DNA of 21,132 nucleotides from Bacteroidales bacterium UBA4866 (GTDB lineage Bacteria > Bacteroidota > Bacteroidia > Bacteroidales > P3): the NCBI GenBank assembly GCA_002399565.1, contig DHDW01000017.1:1-21132 (forward strand). Direction: 5' to 3'. Both the position numbers and the translations under genes were made by a program. Position 1 is the first letter of the stretch, and every line of letters starts with the position of its first letter. The notes under the pieces are model-generated. The model was given only the letters and a program-made list of their open reading frames with translations. It ran no database searches and was not told where the DNA came from. Shown here one piece after another: positions 3,077-19,791 of the stretch.

Positions 3077-3147
3077 ATATCTCTTTGCATATAAATTAAT
3101 TTATTATGTGGCTTTTATATGCTTTTGCATATAATTTCTTATTTTTG
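3077..3147 (+). promoter_or_regulatory. Duplicated operator-like element and -7 box before the DUF488 gene
   Basis: A 16-base element occurs twice, 40 bases apart. At 3117-3132 it is a perfect inverted repeat (ATATGC, TTTT, GCATAT). At 3077-3092 it is a degenerate copy (ATATCTCTTTGCATAT) with 13 of 16 positions identical. Eight bases after the second copy is TATTTTTG (3140-3147), an exact TAnnTTTG -7 element. Two equally oriented palindromes just upstream of a -7 box look like binding sites of a dimeric regulator, perhaps encoded in the same locus. The -7 box lies only nine bases before the ATG at 3157, so the leader would be almost absent, which is a weakness of this reading. Confidence 0.45.
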
Positions 3148-3156
3148 CAGGATAAT

Positions 3157-4053
3157 ATGTATTATAGAAGGAAAATATTATTGGCTTTATTAAGTTTTTT
3201 CGGAGGTAAACTAACTGCAAAACAACTTCAAAAATATTTGTTTTTGTTTACTCGCCAACAAGATACGAAATCTTTTGATTTTGTCCCCTACCATTATGGC
3301 TGTTTTTCATTCCAAGCCAATCAAGATATATCGACCTTAACCAAATATGGTTACTGTCAAATAACGGAAACAAAAGATGGAAGATTTTACGAGCTTATAA
3401 AAGATGAAGATTTTATCAATACACTCAAACCTGAAGACAAACAAAAATTAATTGATACTAAAGACAAGTTCGGTAAGTTAACTCAAACTGAATTAATTCG
3501 TCATACTTATAGAAACTATCCATACTATGCAATAAAAAGTGATATTGCAAAGAGTTTGTTAAATAGTTCCGAGCTTGAAATAATTGAACAACAAAAAAGA
3601 CATTATTCAGAGAAACAACTATTTTCGATTGGATATGAAGGCATTTCGTTAGAAACATATATCAATAAATTGATAATAAACGACGTGCATGTTCTTTGCG
3701 ATGTGAGAAAGAATGCATATAGTCAAAAATATGGTTTTTCAAAAAAAACTCTTGAATTAGCCTGCAAGGGTACAAATATTGAATATATTCATATCCCTGA
3801 TTTAGGGATTGTGTCAGATAAAAGGCAAGAGCTAAATACACAAGCAGATTATGATGCCCTATTTAACGAATACAAACAAACAACTTTAATTGGTAACAAT
3901 AAATCAATTCTATATATTCGTGATTTGTTAGATAAATATAAAAGAGTAGCACTTACTTGTTTTGAAAAAGACCCTAAACAATGTCATAGAACTTGTGTAG
4001 CTAATACTTTAATTCAACTACCAAATGCTGATTATGGATTAAAACTTTTGTAG
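3157..4053 (+). CDS. DUF488 domain protein with N-terminal YwgA/SocA-like region
   Basis: I choose ATG 3157 (298 residues) over ATG 3106, because the earlier codon lies inside the repeated element and upstream of the -7 box. Residues 1-80 (KYLFLFTRQ, FVPYHYGCFS, LTKYGYCQI) resemble the start of YwgA- and SocA/Panacea-type proteins, a helical region seen in antitoxin and accessory contexts. Residues 156-286 form a DUF488 domain: FSIGYEG at 156-162, CDVRKN at 181-186 and the C-terminal FEKDPKQCHR block with C268, C276, H277 and R278. DUF488 has no established biochemical role that I can rely on, although its Cys/His/Arg conservation suggests an enzyme. Only two bases separate its stop (TAG) from the next start, so the pair is an operon. 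Combined with its place among accessory genes, a role in stress or defence is possible but unproven. Confidence 0.8.
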   Translation: MYYRRKILLALLSFFGGKLTAKQLQKYLFLFTRQQDTKSFDFVPYHYGCFSFQANQDISTLTKYGYCQITETKDGRFYELIKDEDFINTLKPEDKQKLIDTKDKFGKLTQTELIRHTYRNYPYYAIKSDIAKSLLNSSELEIIEQQKRHYSEKQLFSIGYEGISLETYINKLIINDVHVLCDVRKNAYSQKYGFSKKTLELACKGTNIEYIHIPDLGIVSDKRQELNTQADYDALFNEYKQTTLIGNNKSILYIRDLLDKYKRVALTCFEKDPKQCHRTCVANTLIQLPNADYGLKLL

Positions 4054-4055
4054 AA

Positions 4056-4874
4056 ATGCCTCTAACTCGTATTTTAATTTCAGTGAAAACTTATCCCACA
4101 CTATCTACCACATACGACGAATTAGTTTGTACAGCAGGCTTTAGAGAGGATGGTTCTTGGATAAGAATTTATCCAGTCCCTTACAGAAAGCTGGAATATA
4201 CAGATAGATACAAGAAATGGCAATGGATAGAAATAGATATTGTCCGCAACACAAGAGATTTTAGAAAAGAGAGTTATAGACCTGCCGATTTAAAAAAAGA
4301 AATTATAGTAGGTGACTCTATCCCCACAATTAAAAATTGGAAACTTCGTAAAGACATTGCTTTGAAAAATGTTTATACCAATATGTCAGAACTTATTCAA
4401 GAAGCAAAAGATGAAAATATTAGTACATCATTAGCTGTTCTTAAGCCAAAGAAAGTTTTGGATTTTATTTGGGAGCCTTGCGAAAGAGAATGGGATAAGA
4501 AAAAGCTTGACGCTATAATAGCAAAACAAGCTCAGGGAAGCTTGTTCGACAATGAAGAAACAAAAAAGTTATTTAAGATAGCTAAAAAAATACCTTATAA
4601 ATTTTCATATGTATTTACCACAGATGACGGCAAAGAACGCACTCTAATGGTAGAAGATTGGGAATTGGGAGAATTGTTCTGGAAATATGATGATGAAGAA
4701 TTGGCATGCCAAAAAGTAAAAGAAAAATATTTTGACTACATGGTGAATAAATGTGACCTATATTTCTTTCTTGGCACAACTAAAAGATTTCATAATGTAG
4801 GACATAATCCATTTATTATAATTGGTTTGTTTTATCCTAAAAAAGAAGACAAATCTCAACTTTCGCTATTTTAA
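4056..4874 (+). CDS. Uncharacterised partner of the DUF488 protein
   Basis: This is a 272-residue soluble protein without signal peptide or membrane segment. The first 60 residues carry the most conserved-looking block: VKTYPTLSTTYDELVCTAG, then an aromatic and Arg-rich stretch (SWIRIYPVPYR, ending at residue 44) and WQWIEID. A beta-rich N-terminus of this sort would fit an OB-like or nucleic-acid-binding fold; a dual-OB assignment is possible but I cannot confirm it. The C-terminal part (residues 180-272) has a second beta-rich block ending in HNVGHNPFIIIGLFYP. The gene follows the DUF488 gene by two bases and no other gene follows on this strand, so the two products probably act together. 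Function unknown. Confidence 0.72.
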   Translation: MPLTRILISVKTYPTLSTTYDELVCTAGFREDGSWIRIYPVPYRKLEYTDRYKKWQWIEIDIVRNTRDFRKESYRPADLKKEIIVGDSIPTIKNWKLRKDIALKNVYTNMSELIQEAKDENISTSLAVLKPKKVLDFIWEPCEREWDKKKLDAIIAKQAQGSLFDNEETKKLFKIAKKIPYKFSYVFTTDDGKERTLMVEDWELGELFWKYDDEELACQKVKEKYFDYMVNKCDLYFFLGTTKRFHNVGHNPFIIIGLFYPKKEDKSQLSLF

Positions 4875-4984: not shown

Positions 4985-5416
4985 CTACGGAGTTGGAGTT
5001 TCGTTTCCAGTTTTTGACTGCAATCCCTTGATGTCTAAATCAACGAATGTAGTCTTTGTTTCCCTAAGCTTTTTGTAAAACCTTTTTGAAGGACGGAAAC
5101 GTACATACTTCCTTGTAATGGTTTCTGCAGTTACTTCCTCTAAGGTATCAACAGCTTTGGCTGTGATTTTGAAATAAAATTTCCCTAAATCACCCAACTC
5201 AACAGGATTTCCCTGCAAGAGATTCCATGTTACAACAGTTTCCAACTGTCTTAGGGTGTTAAGGATATCCCCAGCTGAAAGTGTAGATGTTTCTGAAATC
5301 ATTTCAGCAATTTCCTCAAAACCTACTGTTTCATTGTGGAAAATCCTTGCCAGCCATTTTTCACCAGGATTTGTTCCTGTTGAAATTCTCCTTTTTACCT
5401 TAAGAATTCTAGGCAT
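4985..5416 (-). CDS. HU-family DNA-binding protein (HU-HIG type)
   Basis: This 143-residue protein belongs to the Bacteroidota-specific HU-related group of histone-like proteins. The N-terminus is basic (KVKRRISTG), followed by the two-helix dimerisation region (FEEIAEMISETSTLSAGDI) and the beta-arm/saddle region (VELGDLGKFYFKI). The C-terminus (VRFRPSKRFYKKL) is the typical 'I/VRFRPSK' strand of this family, and a short Thr/Pro tail (ETPTP) ends the protein. Such proteins bind DNA without strong sequence preference and shape the nucleoid; many Bacteroidota genomes carry several copies. It is a single-gene unit between divergent and convergent neighbours, with a clear terminator behind it. 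No perfect TAnnTTTG box is seen upstream. The nearest is GAGATTTG on the minus strand, next to a small inverted repeat (TTGC, six T, GCAA) at 5446-5459. Confidence 0.88.
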   Translation of the reverse strand: MPRILKVKRRISTGTNPGEKWLARIFHNETVGFEEIAEMISETSTLSAGDILNTLRQLETVVTWNLLQGNPVELGDLGKFYFKITAKAVDTLEEVTAETITRKYVRFRPSKRFYKKLRETKTTFVDLDIKGLQSKTGNETPTP

Positions 5417-5939: not shown

Positions 5940-8900
5940 ATGAATTGGAAAATTTTTGAATTAAAATACGACAAACGAGAAACTTGGGCATTTGAACAAA
6001 TGTCTTATTTACTTTTCTGTATATAGTTTAATGATAGAATTGGACTATTTCGCTACAAAAACCAAACAGGAATTGAGACAGAACCAATCGAAAAGGACGG
6101 AAAATTTTATGGATTTCAATCTAAATATTATACAACCTCGATCTCTGACAATAAAAGTGACATTATAGATTCAATTAATAAAGCCAAATCTAAAAACAAA
6201 CAATTAAATGTAGTTTATCTTTATCTCAATCAAGAACTATCTGAAAGTACTAAAATAACCAAGAAGAAACCTCAATACCAAATAGACATTGAGAAATCGG
6301 CTAAAGCATTAGACATAAATATTCAATGGCGAGTTCCTAGTCATTTTGAATTACAATTGTCTTTGCCTAAAAATAAATATTTGTTTGATATTTTTTTCAG
6401 TACTGACACAAGCGAAGGAGATTTGATTGATGAACTTTATAAACACAACGAAAATATTTTACAAGCAATTCAAACTGAAATATCTTATGGGGATAAACAA
6501 ATCAAAATTAACCGAAATTCTGTTGTTGAAACAATATCAAATGCTTCTCAAAACAGGAAAAACATTATTATTTCAGGCGAAGGAGGTTGCGGTAAAACAG
6601 CAATTTTCAAGGAGTTTTATAATTCCAATTTTATAAAAATGCCAATTTGTGTTTTTAAAGCAAATGAGCTTAATGTTAATCATATTAATGACATATTTCA
6701 ATTTGACCACAAATTCACATTTATGCAGTTTCTCAATGCTTTTAAAGATGAACCTATTAAAATATTTGTAATTGATTCAGCAGAAAAACTTGCAGGAATT
6801 TCTAACAACGACATTCTTATTACTTTAATACAACAGTTAAAAGAAAATGATTGGAATATAATCTTTACAACACGCTATGCTTATCTTAATGATTTAACTT
6901 TTCATATTAGAGAGAATTATCAGTTGCCATTTGTCGTTAATGATATTTCTTTGATTGGTATTGATGAATTAGAATCAATAGCAGAAGAATTTAATTTTTC
7001 ACTACCAGAGAATCAAAAATTTGTAGAAAGACTTAGAAATCTATTTTATCTAAATGAATATGTTCAGTATTATCCAAATATAGATAAGCAAGGAAACTTT
7101 AAGGGTTTTATTGACTTGCTTTGGAAAAAACGAATACAAAATAATATCATTCAAAAAGACAATTTACATATAGAAAGAGAAAAGTGTATTATCAGCATTG
7201 CCAAACAAAGATGTGAGACAGGACGGTTTTATATCAATGCTGATAGTTTGCCGCAATCTGCATTGTTTCAATTAAAGCAAGACGAAATACTTGGTTATGA
7301 AGATACTCATAATGGATATTTCATTACTCACGATATTTATGAAGAATGGACTTTAGATAAAATAGTTTCTCGCAGTTTTTCAAATTATTCAAACACAAAA
7401 GAATTTTTTGACGACTTAGGAAATTCATTACCTATTCGCAGAGCATTTAGATTGTGGTTATCTGACCATTTATCTGAAAACAGTAAAGAAATAGAAAGTT
7501 TTATTCAGGATGCATTTACAAACGTTGATGTTTCACAATTTTGGAAAGATGAATTTTTAGTTTCCGTTTTATTGTCGGATTATTCAGAGACATTTTTTAA
7601 CTTTTTCGAGAAAGAAATCATTGCAAATGATTTTAAAATACTAAAACGAATACTATTCCTATTAAGAATTGCATGTACTGATATTTCATCAATTCAAAAT
7701 ATCGAAACTATAAAGCCAAAAGGTAAAGGATGGGAAGAAGTAATTACACTTATTAACAAACATAAATCTGATTTTTTCGATAACAATTTAAAACTTGTTT
7801 TACCAGTCTTAACTAATTGGTGCGAATTCAGTAAAAAAGGAGAAACAACACGATTTGCTGGGTTATTAGCATTAAGTATCATTGAAAAAGCTGAAATATC
7901 CAAAGACTTTTATATTCATGATGATGTAGAAGAAAAAATATTTGGAATAGTTTTCAACGCCTCAAATGAAGTAAAATCAGAATTAAAAGAAATATTTGAT
8001 AAAGTTATTGCTAACAAATTTACTAAATACAATGCCCCTTATAGCGGACTTTGTTCAAAAATTTTAGAGAAACCATACATTGCAATAGAAGTAATAAAAG
8101 CACTTCCATTGTCAGTTATCCAATTATGTGAATTATTTTGGCAAAAACAAGAAAGAGAAGAAGATGATCTTGATTATGAAAAAAATAGCATGGAAAGTCA
8201 ATATGGTCTAGTAAATGAATTTAGACATAGTTATTTTCCTGCAAGTGCCAATCAAACACCAATAAAATGGTTATTACAAATAGCATTCTATGAAACACTT
8301 GATTTTATCATAGAATTTACAAATAAATCAATTGAATATTATAGCAAATCTGACTATGGAAAAGAGGATGTTGTAAAAATTACATTGCACATAAATGGAA
8401 AAGAAGTACCACAGTATTTGAGTAGTTCTATTTGGTGTACGTATCGTGGAAACGATAGTACGGTTGTTCCGCATTTATTACAGTCAATACATATGGCATT
8501 AGAAAAGTTTCTTTTAGAACTTTCTCAAATAATAGATCAGAAAACAATCCAGAACATACTTATAAAAATCCTCATTCAATCGAAATCGGCTTCTCTTACT
8601 TCCATTGTCTGTAGCGTAGTGCTTGCTAATCCTAACAAATTCTACGATATAGCTTTGATTTTATTTAGAACAATAGAATTATTTCATTTGGATACAATTA
8701 GATGTTCAAATGAGTTTCAAGCTAAATTGCTGTATTCAATTGGTTATGGAATGGATAAATTAAAAAATCTTTTATACGTAGATGAAAGACTTAAAACATG
8801 TGAGGATAAACATAGAAATTCAAATTTAGAATTATTGTTTTTGAATTATCAACTTTTGGGAGTAAAAGAATTTACAGAAGAACAAAACAAAGAATTCATC

Positions 8901-10625
8901 GAAAAATTGTATGAGATAATTGACCAATATAAATCAAATTTTTCAACAAGCAAATCTTTTGGAATTCTGTTGGCAAGAATGGATAGAAGAAACCTTAAAT
9001 TTAAAATATCTGAACAAGAAGGCAATAATCTACTTATTGAATTTAGTCTTAAAAAACTTTCTGCTGAAAATAGAGAACTGAGTGAGCAAACCCATAAACA
9101 ATTTGAAGAAACTTTTAAATATACCTTCTTAAAAATATGGTCAGACTTTTTAATTGGAGAGAAAAACAAAAACAAAAAATGTGAGGAATATGACAACAAT
9201 CCTCTTTTAGCTTTATCAGAGACGAAACAACTTATTGAAGAACTAACATCAGGACAAAATGAGATGAGAATGTTCGATTATTCCATACCTGCGTTTTCTT
9301 GTTCAAAATTAATGATTGAATACAAAGACAAACTATCAAAAGAAGATAAAGATTTCTGCAAAGAAATTATTCATTCTTCCTTGTCTAATCTTTTTGCTGA
9401 TGATTACAATTATCAAATAAGTGATGGTGTTGAAGCGTCTGTTCATGCGATTCCTGCATTAATAAATGAATATCCAGAAGAAGCAGAAAATTATGTTTCA
9501 ATAATGGTCTTGAGCCTTTTCGATGAAACGCCTATTGGTGAGTATAAAAGAATATGCGATTACGTCATTGAATCAATTCACAAAGCAAAATTGTGGAAAC
9601 AAAATGCAAAAGTTGCGCAATCAATTTTATTCGGATACATAAAACTCAAACCTATTTATAAAAATATTATTGAGAAAATAAGGAAAGAAAAAGGTTGGGG
9701 AAGAATCTCTAAGAGTTCAATTATTGAAAAGTTAGATAAGATAAATTCTGATTTTACTTTTGAAAATATATCTTTTGATATTCATGATATTGCTCCACTT
9801 GATATTCATGATTTGGAAATAGTTCTTCAATTAATTCCTTCTGACACAAAAGATAAAATTCACTTAGACATCTACGAGAAGTCTTTGCCTTTATTGGCTT
9901 CATGGTTATTAAAAGATAGGAGAAGTTATAAATACGATTCAGGAGATAAATCTAATATTTATTTGTTACGTCGACATGTTTTCAAAAATTTTGCGTATTT
10001 CATTTTACAAAGAGAAGAAAGCGAAATTGATGCATTCCTAAAACCATTTATTGCTTCTTTTTCTTCAACTGAAGAAACAGCTTCATTTATTGAGCAAATA
10101 GTAATTGCAGAAGATTCGCTAAAAAAACAGGAGCAGTTTTGGTATGTTTGGAATAAACTATATCCTAAAATAAAAGAATTGTGTGGCAATCCAAAAGTTT
10201 ATCATCTAAGGGAAGTTATATGGAATTACTTATTAGCTTTGAAGTGGAATGATGGTGTTGAGGATTGGCATAGTTTAAAAAAAGAAAATTTGTCACTTTA
10301 TACTAATTCTTCAAAAGAAATAGGAAACATTCCTGCTGTATTGTATTCTATTGTCAGAGTTTTGAATTCAATAGGAACTAACTTTAAAGATGAGGGAATT
10401 GACTGGATTTATACAATTGTATCAAATAACAATTCTTTGAATTTCCACGATTTAGAATCAAATACTTTATACTACTTAGAGAAGTTTTTGAGAAAATATA
10501 TTTTCATTAATAGACAAAAAATCAAGGAAGAACTAAGATTAAAAAATAAGATTATCCCAATTCTTGATTTCATGATTGAACTAGGTTCTATACATGGATA
10601 TTTATTAAGAGAAAGTATTTTATAA
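5940..10625 (+). pseudogene. Avs-like nuclease-STAND ATPase gene interrupted by an amber stop at codon 29
   Basis: The frame starting at ATG 5940 runs to TAA 10623-10625 (1561 codons) and is broken only once, by TAG at 6024-6026. The residues on both sides of the stop belong to one domain. Before it is a helix with FEQMSYLLFC (E19). After it come GLFRYKNQTGIETEPI (E46) and YGFQSKYY (Q60, K62). Together these give the E, E, QxK layout of a PD-(D/E)XK/Mrr-like nuclease, of the kind fused to antiviral STAND ATPases. No in-frame ATG lies between the stop and the NTPase domain, so the nuclease cannot be made by simple re-initiation; the first alternative start codon is a TTG at 6357, which would drop the nuclease. 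A single base change (for example GAG to TAG) would explain the break. The rest is undamaged, so the lesion is recent, a sequencing error, or is suppressed. The other genes here use TAG as a stop. Confidence 0.8.
6357..10625 (+). CDS. STAND-type P-loop ATPase and helical-repeat sensor part of the same gene
   Basis: This is the uninterrupted body (1422 codons from TTG 6357) and probably not a stand-alone gene. It holds a P-loop NTPase: Walker A GEGGCGKT at residues 74-81 of this segment, Walker B-like IFVIDSAEKL with D140, and a sensor-like TTR at 171-173. That arrangement is typical of STAND ATPases, including the Avs antiviral sensors. From about residue 330 to the end (about 1090 residues) the protein is made of Leu/Ile/Lys/Glu-rich amphipathic helices without a catalytic motif, as expected of the helical-repeat region that recognises a phage protein and drives oligomerisation. 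No C-terminal signal or membrane segment is seen. Known Avs proteins combine a nuclease, the ATPase and such a sensor in this order, so the family assignment is good. Which subtype it is, and what it recognises, cannot be read here. Confidence 0.75.
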   Translation: MSLPKNKYLFDIFFSTDTSEGDLIDELYKHNENILQAIQTEISYGDKQIKINRNSVVETISNASQNRKNIIISGEGGCGKTAIFKEFYNSNFIKMPICVFKANELNVNHINDIFQFDHKFTFMQFLNAFKDEPIKIFVIDSAEKLAGISNNDILITLIQQLKENDWNIIFTTRYAYLNDLTFHIRENYQLPFVVNDISLIGIDELESIAEEFNFSLPENQKFVERLRNLFYLNEYVQYYPNIDKQGNFKGFIDLLWKKRIQNNIIQKDNLHIEREKCIISIAKQRCETGRFYINADSLPQSALFQLKQDEILGYEDTHNGYFITHDIYEEWTLDKIVSRSFSNYSNTKEFFDDLGNSLPIRRAFRLWLSDHLSENSKEIESFIQDAFTNVDVSQFWKDEFLVSVLLSDYSETFFNFFEKEIIANDFKILKRILFLLRIACTDISSIQNIETIKPKGKGWEEVITLINKHKSDFFDNNLKLVLPVLTNWCEFSKKGETTRFAGLLALSIIEKAEISKDFYIHDDVEEKIFGIVFNASNEVKSELKEIFDKVIANKFTKYNAPYSGLCSKILEKPYIAIEVIKALPLSVIQLCELFWQKQEREEDDLDYEKNSMESQYGLVNEFRHSYFPASANQTPIKWLLQIAFYETLDFIIEFTNKSIEYYSKSDYGKEDVVKITLHINGKEVPQYLSSSIWCTYRGNDSTVVPHLLQSIHMALEKFLLELSQIIDQKTIQNILIKILIQSKSASLTSIVCSVVLANPNKFYDIALILFRTIELFHLDTIRCSNEFQAKLLYSIGYGMDKLKNLLYVDERLKTCEDKHRNSNLELLFLNYQLLGVKEFTEEQNKEFIEKLYEIIDQYKSNFSTSKSFGILLARMDRRNLKFKISEQEGNNLLIEFSLKKLSAENRELSEQTHKQFEETFKYTFLKIWSDFLIGEKNKNKKCEEYDNNPLLALSETKQLIEELTSGQNEMRMFDYSIPAFSCSKLMIEYKDKLSKEDKDFCKEIIHSSLSNLFADDYNYQISDGVEASVHAIPALINEYPEEAENYVSIMVLSLFDETPIGEYKRICDYVIESIHKAKLWKQNAKVAQSILFGYIKLKPIYKNIIEKIRKEKGWGRISKSSIIEKLDKINSDFTFENISFDIHDIAPLDIHDLEIVLQLIPSDTKDKIHLDIYEKSLPLLASWLLKDRRSYKYDSGDKSNIYLLRRHVFKNFAYFILQREESEIDAFLKPFIASFSSTEETASFIEQIVIAEDSLKKQEQFWYVWNKLYPKIKELCGNPKVYHLREVIWNYLLALKWNDGVEDWHSLKKENLSLYTNSSKEIGNIPAVLYSIVRVLNSIGTNFKDEGIDWIYTIVSNNNSLNFHDLESNTLYYLEKFLRKYIFINRQKIKEELRLKNKIIPILDFMIELGSIHGYLLRESIL

Positions 10626-10707: not shown

Positions 10708-11478
10708 TTAGATATTTTTGAATATAAAGAAGACATAACCAAAGTATTCTTTGTTGGTTTGGTAGTATTCTATCTCTTGCTCCATTCTTTCAACAAAATC
10801 TTTAGCTGCAAAGCTGTAATTGTTTTCTTCAAGAAATGGTTGAAAACGAGTTTTTGCAATAGAATGATAATTATCAATCCAAGTGTATTCAGGCAATATG
10901 AAATGTGCTATTGGTTTATAACCACAATCTTCAATTATCTTTAATTTTGTTGAAATCATATCTATCTCAGATACATTTTCTGTTATAAAGCTTGAATCTT
11001 TTGGTCTTTGATTGCTTAACCAACAACATTCTGTTACTGCCATATAGCCATTTGGTTTAAGATATTGCTTCCACTCTTTCAAACCTTTCTCAAATCCAAT
11101 ATGGTAAATGGAGCCTTCAGCCCAAATTACATCAAATTCATTTTTCTTAAAAGGAAGTTCGCACATTGAAGCAACAAGTCCTTTAACTTTATTGGTTAAA
11201 TTCTTCTTTTTTATTCTCTTGTTAAGCCCTTCAATCATCTTGGGGGCTATATCAACGGCAGTAATTTCACAATCAATATTTGATGCAATAATTTCTGTCT
11301 GTTTCCCAGTACCACATCCTAAATCTGCAATCTTAAGTTTAGAAGAAGTATTATCTAAAAAGCTTAATGCCCTAAGGGTTTCCATTTTTCCACCAGGACC
11401 TTGAGAGCTAATACCTGCAAAAAAGTTAATTACTAATTGAAAATCGAAATCTACTATTAATTTATTTTCTGTATTCAT
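10708..11478 (-). CDS. Class I SAM-dependent methyltransferase
   Basis: Starting at the ATG 11478, the protein has 256 residues. I prefer this to an ATG at 11505 because a -7 element and palindrome lie at 11494-11532, so the longer start would probably be upstream of the transcript. Motif I (IADLGCGTG, D52 and residues 53-58) binds SAM, ITAVDIAP follows as motif II, and FDVIWAEGSIYHIGF is the motif IV region. The N-terminal DFDFQL...FF..I..QGPGG block is typical of a Bacteroidota group of small-molecule-type methyltransferases annotated only as class I. The substrate is unknown. A C-terminal alpha-helical part (EYTWIDNYHSIAKTRFQPF to the end) probably covers the substrate pocket. It is a single-gene unit with its own terminator, and may be a passenger of this accessory stretch. 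Confidence 0.88.
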   Translation of the reverse strand: MNTENKLIVDFDFQLVINFFAGISSQGPGGKMETLRALSFLDNTSSKLKIADLGCGTGKQTEIIASNIDCEITAVDIAPKMIEGLNKRIKKKNLTNKVKGLVASMCELPFKKNEFDVIWAEGSIYHIGFEKGLKEWKQYLKPNGYMAVTECCWLSNQRPKDSSFITENVSEIDMISTKLKIIEDCGYKPIAHFILPEYTWIDNYHSIAKTRFQPFLEENNYSFAAKDFVERMEQEIEYYQTNKEYFGYVFFIFKNI

Positions 11479-11493
11479 GATTAATTGTATTGT

Positions 11494-11532
11494 CTCACAA
11501 AGCAAATCTACTAATGATTTACAATTTGTGAG
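11494..11532 (-). promoter_or_regulatory. Operator-like palindrome around the methyltransferase -7 box
   Basis: CTCACAAA at 11494-11501 and TTTGTGAG at 11525-11532 form a perfect 8-bp inverted repeat. Inside it a second pair of arms (AAATC and GATTT) lies nearer the centre. On the minus strand TAGATTTG (11510-11503), an exact TAnnTTTG -7 element, falls inside the palindrome and 25 bases before the ATG at 11478. A repressor bound here would block the promoter. No good -33 TTG at the usual distance is seen. Confidence 0.5.
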
Positions 11533-15406: not shown

Positions 15407-16636
15407 ATGAAACTATTAATTCTTACGCAGTATTTCCCTCCAGAGGTTGGAGCCCCACAAAGCCGCTTGTATGAAGTTGCTTTACGATTGAAGAAAAAGG
15501 GAGTAGATGTTACCGTTTTGACGGCAATGCCTAATTATCCACAAATGGTTATTCATCCAGCCTACAAAGGCAAACACTACTGCAAAGAAAACCTTGATGG
15601 GATGACAATTCATCGCTCTTGGATATATATTCCCAAATCAAAAGCTCTTATCAAACGCCTCCTTAACTATTTTTCTTTTGTGTTTTCATCTCTTTGGTGG
15701 GGATTATGGAAGATTGAGAAACAAGATATATTGCTTGTAGAATCTCCTCCTTTGTTCTTAGGAATAACTGCCTATTTACTTTCAAGAGCAAAGGGAGCAA
15801 AATTAGTATTTAACGTTTCTGACCTTTGGCCTGAGAGTGCAGAGAAATTAGGTTTGATAACAAATAAGCCCTTATTGAAAATGGCAACTCGCATGGAAGA
15901 GTTCTTTTACAAAAAATCTGCTCTTATTTCTGGGCAAACTCAGGGAATAGTCAATAATATAAAAGAACGATTCCCCAACAAAACAGTTCACTGGCTTAAA
16001 AATGGAGTAGATATTAACTTCTATGATGTGAATAAAAGCTTTGAAAAAAACTCTTGGCGAAAAGCTCATAATATGAAAGAAACAGATTTCCTTTTGTTCT
16101 TTGGTGGAATATTGGGATATGCACAAGATATAGAAGTAATACTAAAAACTGCCAAATTGGTTTCCGATAATAAAGACATAAAATTCATTATCTACGGCAC
16201 AGGACCCGAAAAAGAAAGACTTGTGGCAATGAAAAACCAGTTAGAATTAGAAAATGTATTTTTCTTTGATGCTGTTCCAAAGAGTCAAATGCAAAATATA
16301 ATAATGGATATGAATTGTTCAATGGCACCGCTAAAGAAAATAGATCTCTTCAAAGGAGCAATTCCAACCAAAATATTTGAAAATCTTGCTCTAAAAAAGC
16401 CTCTTTTGCTTGGAGTAGAAGGAGAAGCAAAGGATTTATTTGTAGATAAAGGAAAATGTTGTTTATTTTTTGAACCCGAAAACCCTGAAGAGATGAAAAA
16501 ACAAGTACTTTACCTCTACAATAACCCTGATAAATTACAAGAATTAGGAGAAAATGGCTTGGATTACGTATCAAAATACTTTAACAGAGATATTATTGCC
16601 GAAGAATATTACCAAGAGCTAAAGAAGTTACAATAG
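15407..16636 (+). CDS. WbuB-like GT4 glycosyltransferase
   Basis: This 409-residue enzyme begins MKLLILTQYFPPEVGAPQSR and continues with VTVLTAMPNYPQ, the characteristic N-terminus of the WbuB group, whose E. coli member is annotated as an L-fucosamine transferase in O-antigen synthesis. FNVSDLWPESAEKLG near residue 137 and WLKNGVD near 197 fit the same group. The C-terminal domain shows FGGILGYAQDIEVI, YGTGPEK, PLKKIDLFKGAIPTKIFE and the GEAKDLF region. A hydrophobic stretch (FVFSSLWWGLW) probably contacts the membrane. The same family also occurs in capsule clusters with other sugars, so the fucosamine substrate is only a guess. It ends in TAG, and the following helicase gene starts after three bases. 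Confidence 0.9.
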   Translation: MKLLILTQYFPPEVGAPQSRLYEVALRLKKKGVDVTVLTAMPNYPQMVIHPAYKGKHYCKENLDGMTIHRSWIYIPKSKALIKRLLNYFSFVFSSLWWGLWKIEKQDILLVESPPLFLGITAYLLSRAKGAKLVFNVSDLWPESAEKLGLITNKPLLKMATRMEEFFYKKSALISGQTQGIVNNIKERFPNKTVHWLKNGVDINFYDVNKSFEKNSWRKAHNMKETDFLLFFGGILGYAQDIEVILKTAKLVSDNKDIKFIIYGTGPEKERLVAMKNQLELENVFFFDAVPKSQMQNIIMDMNCSMAPLKKIDLFKGAIPTKIFENLALKKPLLLGVEGEAKDLFVDKGKCCLFFEPENPEEMKKQVLYLYNNPDKLQELGENGLDYVSKYFNRDIIAEEYYQELKKLQ

Positions 16637-16639
16637 ATA

Positions 16640-18658
16640 ATGGTAAGGATAGAAGCTGAAAAAATATTAAAAGAGAAATTCAATATAGATCATTTCTACG
16701 ATGAACAATGGGAAGTGATTGAAAGTTTATTGAATGGTAAACGAGTTCTGTTTATTGAAAAGACAGGATTTGGTAAATCTCTTTGTTTTCAGTTTCCAGC
16801 AATTGTATTTAGTGGAGTAACAATAGTTTTTTCTCCTTTAATAGCATTGATGAGAGATCAATGTAGGAAATTAAATATTTTAGGCATTGCGGCTAAATGT
16901 ATTAATAGTGAACAAGAAGAAGAGGAGAATAATAAAATCATTGAAGAAGCTAAAAATGGGGAAATTAAAATCTTATATATAGCTCCAGAAAGGCAAGAAA
17001 ATACAAAATGGATAGAATCTACTAAAGATTTAAATTTATCAATGGTTGTTGTTGATGAAGCTCATTGTATATCTGTATGGGGACATGATTTCAGACCTGC
17101 ATTTAGAAGAATAATAAGTTTAGTAAATCTACTTCCAAAGGGAATGCCTATTTTAGCCACAACTGCAACAGCCACAAAGAAAGTTCAAAAAGATATTGAA
17201 CAACAAATGGGAGGAGAATTAAAAGTTTTGAGAGGTAATTTGATGAGAAGTAATTTTAAACTTTTTGTTATTAAAGTAAACTCTCAAGATGAAAAGATGA
17301 TATGGTTAGGTGAAAATCTTATTAACTTTCCTGGTTCGGGGATTATTTATACTGGTACAAGAATTGAAGCAGAAACATATTCAAAATGGTTGGAATATCT
17401 TAAAATTCCTTCTATGGTTTATCATGCAGGTTTAGATTCTAACTTGAGGATAGAAATAGAAGAAGGGCTAATTGAAAATAAATGGAAATGCATAACTTCG
17501 ACCAATGCTCTTGGAATGGGAATTGATAAATTGGATATTAGATTTATTATTCACACACAAATTCCTCAATCTCCAATTCATTATTATCAAGAAATTGGAA
17601 GAGCCGGAAGAGATGGGAAAACTGCATTTATAATTTTATTTTATGCTCAAGAAGATAAAAAATTACCAGAATCATTTATTGAAACTTCAAGACCGAGCGT
17701 TGAAAAATACTATGATTTTATAAGTGTAGTAAAAGAAGAGTTGCTTAGCCAAAAAGAAATATGTAAGAAGACTAATTTGAAACAAAATCAAGTAAGAGTT
17801 ATTAAAGCAGACTTGATTGATCAAAAGATAATTAGAGAAATAAATATAGAAGGTTCAAAAAAAATAGAATATATTTTAGGAGCTCCAGAATTTGATGCAA
17901 CAGTATATAATCAAATTAAAGAAGGAAAGAGAAACGACTTAGAAAAGATGATTGAGTATGTTGATACAAAGCAATCAAGGATGAAGTTTCTTTGTAATTA
18001 TTTAGGAGATGAAACTTCTTCATTTGAATTTAAGAATTGTGATAATACTGATTATAGAAAAAGAACTGTTGAATTAACTCCTCAATGGGAAGAAAAATTA
18101 AAAGAGTTTACAGAAAGTTATTTCCCTGAAATAATCTTAGAAACGAAATTTTCTAATTTAACAAATGGTTTTGCTGCTTCATATTATGGAAATACTAAGG
18201 TTGGAAAGATAGTTCATCTTTGCAAATATGAAAAAAGAGGAGATTTCCCTGATTATCTTTTAAAGCTGGTTTTGAAAGTATATAATACTAAACTAAGCCA
18301 AGAAAAATTTGATTTAATACTTTATGCTCCTCCCACATTATCAGGAAATCTTGTAAGAAATTTTGCCATAAAGATTTCATCATACTTGAAAATACCTATT
18401 TCTCATGATTTACAAAAGCTAAGAATAACTAAAGAACAAAAGATATTTGAAAACTCATACTTAAAACAAGATAATATTAAAGATGCTTTTGTTTATATTC
18501 AACCTGATGAAATAAAAGATAAGAACATTCTTTTAATTGATGATATTTGTGATAGTAAAGCAACACTTAAAGAAATAGGAAGGTATCTTACTTCCTTAGG
18601 AGTAAATAAAATAACACCATTAGTAATAGCTAAAACAGTAGGAGGAGATACACTATGA
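16640..18658 (+). CDS. RecQ-family helicase fused to a ComFC-like phosphoribosyltransferase
   Basis: This is a 672-residue fusion. The N-terminal half is a RecQ-type SF2 helicase: a Q motif (FYDEQWEV), Walker A KTGFGKS at 41-47, SPLIALMRDQ, DEAH at 139-142 in the RecQ-specific block DEAHCISVWGHDFRP, then LATTATAT, and the motif V/VI region GMGIDKLD...QEIGRAGRDG. The following RecQ zinc-binding block is degenerate: positions matching E. coli Cys380, Cys397, Cys400 and Cys403 are S446, F464, C467 and T470. No HRDC domain is seen. The C-terminal 170 residues are a ComF-like PRTase: LILYAPPTLSGNLVRNFA, TKEQKIFENSYLKQDNIKDAF, and the PRPP-loop motif NILLIDDICDSKATL starting at residue 629. The helicase should unwind DNA 3' to 5'; the PRTase reaction is unknown. 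The gene overlaps the DprA-like gene by four bases. Confidence 0.9.
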   Translation: MVRIEAEKILKEKFNIDHFYDEQWEVIESLLNGKRVLFIEKTGFGKSLCFQFPAIVFSGVTIVFSPLIALMRDQCRKLNILGIAAKCINSEQEEEENNKIIEEAKNGEIKILYIAPERQENTKWIESTKDLNLSMVVVDEAHCISVWGHDFRPAFRRIISLVNLLPKGMPILATTATATKKVQKDIEQQMGGELKVLRGNLMRSNFKLFVIKVNSQDEKMIWLGENLINFPGSGIIYTGTRIEAETYSKWLEYLKIPSMVYHAGLDSNLRIEIEEGLIENKWKCITSTNALGMGIDKLDIRFIIHTQIPQSPIHYYQEIGRAGRDGKTAFIILFYAQEDKKLPESFIETSRPSVEKYYDFISVVKEELLSQKEICKKTNLKQNQVRVIKADLIDQKIIREINIEGSKKIEYILGAPEFDATVYNQIKEGKRNDLEKMIEYVDTKQSRMKFLCNYLGDETSSFEFKNCDNTDYRKRTVELTPQWEEKLKEFTESYFPEIILETKFSNLTNGFAASYYGNTKVGKIVHLCKYEKRGDFPDYLLKLVLKVYNTKLSQEKFDLILYAPPTLSGNLVRNFAIKISSYLKIPISHDLQKLRITKEQKIFENSYLKQDNIKDAFVYIQPDEIKDKNILLIDDICDSKATLKEIGRYLTSLGVNKITPLVIAKTVGGDTL

Positions 18659-19791
18659 GAAATGAAGAGGCATATTGGATAACATTGGCACACTTACCAA
18701 GATGGGGTTATGCAAAGATTAATAATATAATTGCAAAATTCCATCATGATTATAAGATTTCAATTACAGAGTTCTTTCAATTGTCTGATTTGGAATTAAG
18801 AGATTTATATTCTTTAGAAGAAAAAGATATTATAAGTCTAAATCAAGCAAAATTAGAAATTCCAAATAATGCTTTTATTGCTGAGTCTTTACTGAATGAA
18901 GGTTATGAATTAATTCCTATTATCTCATCAGAATACTCTAATACGCTTAAAGAAAATCTTAAACTTAAACATTCCCCTTCGCTCCTATATGTAAAAGGAG
19001 ATAAAACAATCCTACAAGAAAACTCAATTGCTATAGTTGGTTCTCGTGATGCTTCTGAAATTGCTTTGCAATTTACGGATAATATTGCAAAAATGGCATC
19101 AAAAGAATATAAAGTTGTTGTAAGTGGTTTTGCAAAAGGAGTAGATAAACAAGCTCTTGATTCTGTTTTAAAATATAATGGACGAAGTATAATAGTTCTT
19201 CCACAAGGAATAGCTACTTTTGATTCAGGATTTAGAACATATTATAAGCCTCTTGTAAGTGGTGATTTGTTAGTTTTGAGTGTTTTCCCCCCAAAAGCTA
19301 CTTGGAATACAGGATTTGCAATGGCAAGAAATCCTATTATTTATGGTTTAGCAAATGAAATATATGTTGCAGAATCATCAGAAAAAGGAGGGACTTGGTC
19401 TGGAGCTATTGATGGATTAAAAAAAGGCAGGAATATATATGTTAGAAATGTTACAGAAGAAGAAAATAATGCAAATCAATTATTGATAGAAAAAGGTGGA
19501 ATAGCGATTGATAATTTTGGAGAAAGAATTAATACTGATATTCCAAAAGAAGAGTTAGAGATAGATTTAGTTAATGAACCAAAAGTTAATTATGAAGATA
19601 AGATTGTTGAACTTCTTTATAATGGACAATATGCAGTAAAAGATATAATTAAGATTCTTAAACTTGATTTAACAGAAAAAAAAGTGAGAGATATTTTAAA
19701 ACAAAGAAAAGATGTTGAAATAACTTGTAAAAAGCCATTGAAGTTTACAATGAAAGATTGTAGGGTGAAGCAAATTACAATTGATATTTAG
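18655..19791 (+). CDS. DprA/Smf-like DNA-processing protein
   Basis: This 378-residue protein resembles DprA, which binds single-stranded DNA and loads RecA in natural transformation. A helical N-terminus (residues 1-75, with LPRWGYAKINNII) stands in for the SAM/HhH region. The Rossmann core shows IAIVGSRDAS (VGSR at 128-131), VVSGFAKGVD at 155-164, IVLPQGI near 180, ARNPIIYGLA from 224 (usually RNRII) and AES..GGTWSGA at 239-251. A C-terminal winged-helix-like segment (IVELLYNGQYAVKDIIKIL) follows. The conserved RNR is RNP, and the SGSxxTA block is altered to GGTWSGA, so it belongs to a divergent branch and not to the housekeeping copy. The start ATG overlaps the stop of the RecQ-PRTase gene (ATGA), which implies a stoichiometric pair. 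Stop is TAG. It is probably part of a defence or DNA-handling module. Confidence 0.88.
   Translation: MRNEEAYWITLAHLPRWGYAKINNIIAKFHHDYKISITEFFQLSDLELRDLYSLEEKDIISLNQAKLEIPNNAFIAESLLNEGYELIPIISSEYSNTLKENLKLKHSPSLLYVKGDKTILQENSIAIVGSRDASEIALQFTDNIAKMASKEYKVVVSGFAKGVDKQALDSVLKYNGRSIIVLPQGIATFDSGFRTYYKPLVSGDLLVLSVFPPKATWNTGFAMARNPIIYGLANEIYVAESSEKGGTWSGAIDGLKKGRNIYVRNVTEEENNANQLLIEKGGIAIDNFGERINTDIPKEELEIDLVNEPKVNYEDKIVELLYNGQYAVKDIIKILKLDLTEKKVRDILKQRKDVEITCKKPLKFTMKDCRVKQITIDI

Follow-up and report, generated by a model that had tools for sequence, protein, structure and literature searches.

A PsyrTA (RqlHI) gene pair with a predicted toxin and antitoxin in a Bacteroidales genome

Two adjacent genes of Bacteroidales bacterium UBA4866 form a further, ordinary copy of PsyrTA (also named RqlHI), a system that has already been named and partly characterised. 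They lie in a stretch of 21,132 nucleotides (contig DHDW01000017.1 of assembly GCA_002399565.1, called the window here), in which two plus-strand open reading frames (ORFs), 16640-18658 (672 aa) and 18655-19791 (378 aa), both intact and both starting with ATG, encode a RecQ-like helicase carrying a C-terminal phosphoribosyltransferase (PRTase) domain and a DprA-like protein. The assignment is carried by the domain content, an end-to-end match to the PsyrT profile, a four-base overlap of the genes, conserved pairing and sporadic occurrence. On balance we favor a reading in which PsyrT is the likely toxin and PsyrA the likely antitoxin of the pair, possibly acting against phages or other foreign DNA. 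The features of the pair, including the loop that binds phosphoribosyl pyrophosphate (PRPP), are as follows.

16640..18658, plus strand: psyrT / rqlH, RecQ-like helicase with C-terminal PRTase, 672 aa, predicted toxin (PADLOC PDLC03928, Pfam)
16703..17617, plus strand: superfamily 2 (SF2) helicase core, residues 22-326, with Walker A TGFGKS including K46, a DEAH box and the QEIGRAGRDG motif (Pfam, motif alignment)
17909..18046, plus strand: RecQ zinc-binding-like region, residues 424-469 (Pfam RecQ_Zn_bind, 26.6 bits; alignment)
18155..18649, plus strand: PRTase domain, about residues 506-670 (PsyrT model positions 525-688, AlphaFold, Foldseek)
18539..18565, plus strand: PRPP-loop motif DDICDSKAT, residues 634-642, with Lys640 (18557-18559) in the usual place of Gly (alignment)
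18655..18658, plus strand: ATGA overlap of four bases, psyrT stop and psyrA start (sequence)
18655..19791, plus strand: psyrA / rqlI, DprA-like, 378 aa, predicted antitoxin (PADLOC PDLC03927, AlphaFold, Foldseek)
18898..19497, plus strand: DprA Rossmann-like domain, residues 82-281 (Pfam PF02481 DNA_processg_A, 129.2 bits, 1.6e-37)
19591..19752, plus strand: C-terminal winged-helix-like region, about residues 313-366 (named by inspection from the helix and strand order of the AlphaFold model)

The first protein matches the PADLOC PsyrT model PDLC03928 at 825.6 bits, with residues 5-670 aligned to positions 7-688 of 689; it is a full-length helicase-PRTase fusion with a DprA-like partner immediately downstream on the same strand, as in PsyrTA/RqlHI. 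Weaker PADLOC matches of the pair are to DpdF, other helicases, ShosT and ShosA. Pfam recognizes DEAD (2.1e-26), Helicase_C (1.7e-19) and RecQ_Zn_bind (1.1e-05), and the helicase motifs were read from an alignment of PsyrT with relatives from 18 other genomes in the order. The broader RecQ subfamily model TIGR00614 is passed (340.5 bits versus 219.8 needed), but the NCBIfam recQ equivalog TIGR01389 is not (373.8 bits versus 640.2), which sets the protein apart from housekeeping RecQ. The genome’s own RecQ (L003) has four zinc cysteines, of which PsyrT keeps one in the alignment, whereas other members of the PsyrT family, for example those at L023 and L016, retain three or four.

The C-terminus of PsyrT is predicted to be a PRTase, an assignment that is weak on Pfam alone and otherwise firm. 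Pfam Pribosyltran scores 6.6e-05 and 22.7 bits, below its cut-off of 26.3, and NCBIfam comF (TIGR00201) gives 23.4 bits against a cut-off of 233.55, so that this helicase-fused domain does not classify as ComF. Because both scores fall under their cut-offs, the domain was checked by further means. Taken on their own, residues 492-672 score 171.1 bits against the PsyrT model, and their AlphaFold model (mean predicted local distance difference test, pLDDT, 91.0) matches in the PDB, by Foldseek, PurF (best E 5.4e-06), ShosT (8zvb/8zvc/8zvd, of which 8zvc is entitled ‘ShosT with PRPP-Mg’) and Helicobacter pylori ComF (7p0h). TM-scores of about 0.5-0.65 (by query length) are in the moderate range; they make the fold class clear, with no close relative among these structures: a predicted PRTase fold like that of PurF, ShosT and ComF. 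An earlier note, made from the letters of the window, had described a RecQ-family helicase fused to a ComF-like PRTase, and the Pfam matches, the PsyrT model and the predicted fold bear that description out.

The same note’s second gene, a DprA-like protein overlapping the first by four bases, is likewise confirmed by the Pfam DprA match and by the ATGA at the junction. PsyrA scores 244.7 bits against PADLOC PDLC03927 (model positions 6-325 of 398) and only 109.6 bits against ShosA. Over its C-terminal region, residues 313-366, no Pfam model rises above cut-off. Its AlphaFold model (mean pLDDT 88.5) has Streptococcus pneumoniae DprA (3uqz, E 7e-17) as best Foldseek match and ShosA of Escherichia coli APEC O1 (8zva) as fifth. 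The NCBIfam dprA equivalog TIGR00732 reaches 111.1 bits where 191.15 are needed, which argues against a housekeeping DprA. A relative of PsyrA with 97% identity comes from a Bacteroidales metagenome-assembled genome (MAG).

Among the closest named systems is RqlH/RqlI of E. coli F11, also a RecQ-like helicase with a C-terminal PRTase and a DprA-like partner directly downstream. The acidic PRPP-binding motif is present in the window (DDICD, residues 634-638), where DICD638 corresponds by motif to DIVD663 of F11, and RqlI has 400 aa compared with 378 for PsyrA. What differs in the window is that the zinc cysteines are mostly lost and the loop Gly has become Lys, as judged against other relatives, F11 being compared by description. 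With PsyrTA as catalogued in PADLOC, where both the PsyrT and the PsyrA model are matched, the difference so far is one of sequence divergence only. ShosTA shares with the pair a DprA-like antitoxin and a PRTase toxin, with a clear ShosA match, a weak ShosT match and similarity in fold. However, the ShosT match (19.7 bits) covers the PRTase end only, PsyrA outscores ShosA, and ShosT is a separate PDB chain of 432 aa whose listed entries name no helicase, whereas the PRTase of the window is fused to a helicase.

Occurrence of PsyrT is sporadic. With three candidates scored per genome across 295 genomes of the order, the PsyrT model found it in 19, this one included, at 756-880 bits; the next best match, at 380.5 bits, is at the level of ordinary RecQ, leaving a clean score gap between the two. 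A profile scan of three other genomes of the same family found none. The PsyrA model, run on 295 genomes of the class, was matched at E<=1e-40 in 7, again counting this one, a rate not comparable with that of PsyrT because the genomes were drawn differently and the test was stricter.

Where PsyrT occurs, PsyrA nearly always accompanies it. A contig scan gave 40 loci, 38 of them (L041-L078) with a complete or partial PsyrT gene and two (L079, L080) with none by script; adding the window, two plasmid records and 18 further PsyrT loci of the order brings the total to 59, or 58 distinct loci after removal of one repeat. PsyrA occurs with PsyrT, or part of it, in 56 of the 58, the window included, L027 and L060 being the two without it. 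The exact four-base overlap recurs at L041, L047, L050 and L055, among others (start codons picked mechanically). The concern that the pairing might not be conserved elsewhere can thus be set aside. At L063 and L067 the psyrT frame is apparently broken and psyrA open, perhaps by loss of the toxin before the antitoxin or by an assembly error. A Flavobacterium-labelled MAG (L042:4374-6035) has a third gene between psyrT and psyrA, overlapping each by four bases, with a PRTase of the PsyrT/ShosT type at its C-terminus and about 340 N-terminal residues without assignment. At 1e-5 the protein database holds 18 such proteins, itself counted; none was found in the 295 genomes of the window’s order, in a search without a positive control that shows nothing alone.

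Mobile elements were also surveyed. A phage-borne copy was considered and rejected: PsyrT matched 21 of 50,697 phage records, none over 80% of the query, and among the 20 phage matches listed the alignment stops by residue 500, before the PRTase. A scan of viral contigs with PsyrA confirmed none. Among 72,556 plasmid records, eight match PsyrT at 1e-60 and three of these cover at least 80% of the query; both of the three that were opened carry an annotated DprA beside the helicase.

The pair has three kinds of activity in common with ComFA, ComFC and DprA of natural transformation, and the earlier note had read it as competence functions rebuilt in a two-gene module. Its naming of the activities was correct, but the pair corresponds to the PsyrTA/RqlHI toxin-antitoxin pair and not to a competence module of a new kind. 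ComFA belongs to another helicase family than RecQ. Unlike the competence set, the window pair joins a RecQ-type helicase and the PRTase in one protein, and the genome carries further genes of the ComF type and for DprA. That the pair is a domestic module for DNA uptake or repair, replacing the usual RecQ, ComF and DprA, would suit this parallel in domains and the resemblance of the PRTase model to H. pylori ComF, but we regard it as highly improbable. The source genome (2.1 Mb, 54 contigs, 84% complete) was searched for housekeeping genes, as the earlier note had proposed, and it holds a separate DprA (C35, 258.9 bits, a better PF02481 match than PsyrA), two further genes with a RecQ zinc region (C46 and C5) and a ComF-family gene (C3, 121.1 bits, below the NCBIfam cut-off). 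A housekeeping or competence role was rejected because these separate genes exist and PsyrT is sporadic, far from universal in the order and absent from all three other genomes of the family.

The functional expectation for PsyrTA comes from published work. The pair was studied in 2015 in extraintestinal E. coli F11 (PMC4670107), where rqlHI form an operon and cells that lose RqlI suffer DNA stress brought about by RqlH; psyrTA is also listed as a validated toxin-antitoxin family, citing Sberro et al. 2013 (PMC8790059). According to that paper, toxicity of RqlH disappears without the PRTase domain or with the acidic PRPP motif mutated (the D663 Ala mutant is largely non-toxic), the PRTase domain alone is non-toxic, RqlI removes the toxicity of normal RqlH, and co-precipitation of RqlI with RqlH requires the PRTase domain. 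Helicase mutants lowered viable counts and raised SOS, and RqlI did not restore the counts (PMC4670107). Expression of another PsyrTA in K-12 produced a growth defect (PMC12409345), which counts for the favored reading. It is from F11 RqlHI that we infer, for the window pair, toxicity of PsyrT alone and its relief by PsyrA binding. By analogy with RqlHI and ShosTA, PsyrA would hold the PRTase of PsyrT in check until a putative trigger, for example single-stranded DNA or replication intermediates of phages or plasmids, frees or switches PsyrT. PsyrT would then move on DNA, its PRTase spending PRPP to damage DNA or nucleotides, and the infected cell would be arrested. A full-text literature search, judged by titles and the starts of abstracts, returned no mechanism paper on ShosTA.

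The PRPP loop is one place where the window copy departs from its relatives. Among the best 120 of 8000 scored homologues, 113 read DSG, four have Ser instead of Gly, and the three nearest have Lys: P0001 (the window’s own cluster, of 50 member sequences at 99% identity) and P0003 read DSK, and P0002 reads GSK, the preceding Asp gone. Cys occupies the Gly position at L043 and L045. These variants could point to an attenuated copy, in which the lineage has lost PRTase catalysis and PsyrT is now a PRPP-binding or helicase-only protein; the missing Asp of P0002 is the one that matches by motif F11 D663, the residue whose Ala mutant was largely non-toxic (PMC4670107). We nevertheless hold this to be unlikely, since the psyrT frame is intact, the cluster has its 50 members, and identity between the window and P0002 is 83.8/74.7/78.5 percent over the helicase, middle and PRTase parts. 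Selective erosion of the PRTase half was rejected on the same figures, the PRTase being no more eroded than the middle part. Equally doubtful, in our view, is the idea that the lineage rewrote the loop in an intact protein toward altered chemistry or toward a PRPP-sensing, helicase-driven, non-transferase effector.

A defence role for PsyrTA fits because the system is catalogued with defence systems and has ShosTA relatives. A related pair of a DprA-like protein and a PRTase protects against T7 and lambda (PMC9122126), with DprA proposed there as sensor and the PRTase as effector; the same source points to shosTA, syrTA and rqlHI as toxin-antitoxin systems that include DprA homologues. One plasmid copy (L039) lies between pglX and a DUF262 gene, within a BREX locus, which speaks for the defence reading. 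Elsewhere the pair lies directly upstream of an HsdR-like gene (L023) and between recA and a gene with a GmrSD_N domain (L059).

Several observations weigh against defence by an active toxin. The Lys in place of Gly in the PRPP loop could weaken catalysis. A survey by Russell and Mulvey, as given in PMC4670107, counts RqlH alone in 55.3% of strains and both proteins in 43.5%; the strains with RqlH alone are mostly Gram-positives, and rqlH is always upstream where both occur. Plating of 10 phages did not rise when PsyrTA was deleted from E. coli NILS69, and a K-12 strain with cloned PsyrTA was not detectably protected against a panel of 15 phages (PMC12409345). Three phages showed better plating on K-12 carrying PsyrTA, an effect that the authors attribute to low lawn density (PMC12409345). 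Finally, nine names of defence systems fell among 120 ORFs near the pair against three among 120 control ORFs, each family coming from one ORF and two names possibly falling on the same ORF. The ORFs near the pair came from up to three genes away at L041-L078 (174 ORFs of 110-900 aa), and 120 of them, from 28 loci (L041-L068), were used; the control took 120 of 164 ORFs lying up to five genes from an ordinary RecQ gene, from 14 of 20 regions (L088 and L090 left out for having no RecQ by script, four more for size), both at a PADLOC threshold of 1e-20. This excess of defence genes around the pair is too weak to build on. The earlier note had proposed counting both co-occurrence and nearby defence genes, and it is the former that is clear.

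Much of this would also suit a toxin-antitoxin or addiction module that has no real defence role and is kept since loss of PsyrA is harmful. RqlHI acts as a toxin-antitoxin pair (PMC4670107), and the experiments in NILS69 and K-12 yielded no phage protection. Some copies adjoin housekeeping genes: recA at L059, an aro-type row, by eye, at L060, and two aconitase-family (leuC/leuD-like) genes that flank psyrTA in a Dehalococcoidia-labelled MAG (L051:9995-13529). At 863 aa, the PsyrT of this last locus carries a C-terminal extension, HRDC-like by eye. We give pure addiction a minor though real chance; against it, the PADLOC catalogue places PsyrTA among defence systems, the related pair protects against T7 and lambda, one copy sits within BREX, and Avs4 is encoded in the same window. 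Between defence and domestic uptake, the two roles that the earlier note had left side by side, defence is the likelier, though unproven, and the domestic role is disfavored.

Besides PsyrTA, the window holds another catalogued defence gene, Avs4, a STAND nuclease of AVAST type 4 at 6357-10625 on the plus strand (NCBIfam NF041815, 1875.4 bits versus a cut-off of 1500; PADLOC, 1439.8 bits). The pair had been placed next to this STAND ATPase and to a DUF488 pair, but neither is adjacent. About 6 kb and six ORFs, glycosyltransferase-type ORFs among them, separate the end of Avs4 from the pair downstream, and the DUF488 gene (3106-4053, plus strand) ends about 12.6 kb away. The companion of the latter, two bases downstream (4056-4874, plus strand, 272 aa), matches nothing in Pfam at E<=1 and nothing in NCBIfam. 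On the minus strand lie an HU-like DNA-binding gene (4985-5416) and an S-adenosylmethionine-dependent methyltransferase (10708-11505) whose PADLOC mad2 match is confined to residues 56-164, a generic methyltransferase region. Immediately upstream of the pair are three glycosyltransferase-type ORFs, the first assigned by Pfam and the other two by inspection. The nearest stops at 16636, three bases before the psyrT start at 16640, so psyrT may be co-transcribed with the polysaccharide cluster. Of the 59 loci, 52 have an ORF upstream, and at 12 of these a same-strand ORF lies within 30 bases (crude ORF calls, some perhaps spurious). A Bacteroidetes-type promoter consensus pattern matches four times in the window against 2.4 expected; one match (15825-15856) lies within the glycosyltransferase gene upstream of psyrT, and none between that gene and psyrT.

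The earlier note had suspected that associations of helicase, PRTase and DprA might already be described. They are, as RqlHI, in PMC4670107, whose Discussion already likens the pair to DprA and a comF operon, and the relation of the system to ComFA/ComFC is also in print in PMC5512222; the question is thereby settled. For the PsyrT family, loop variants such as Lys640 are useful natural comparisons.

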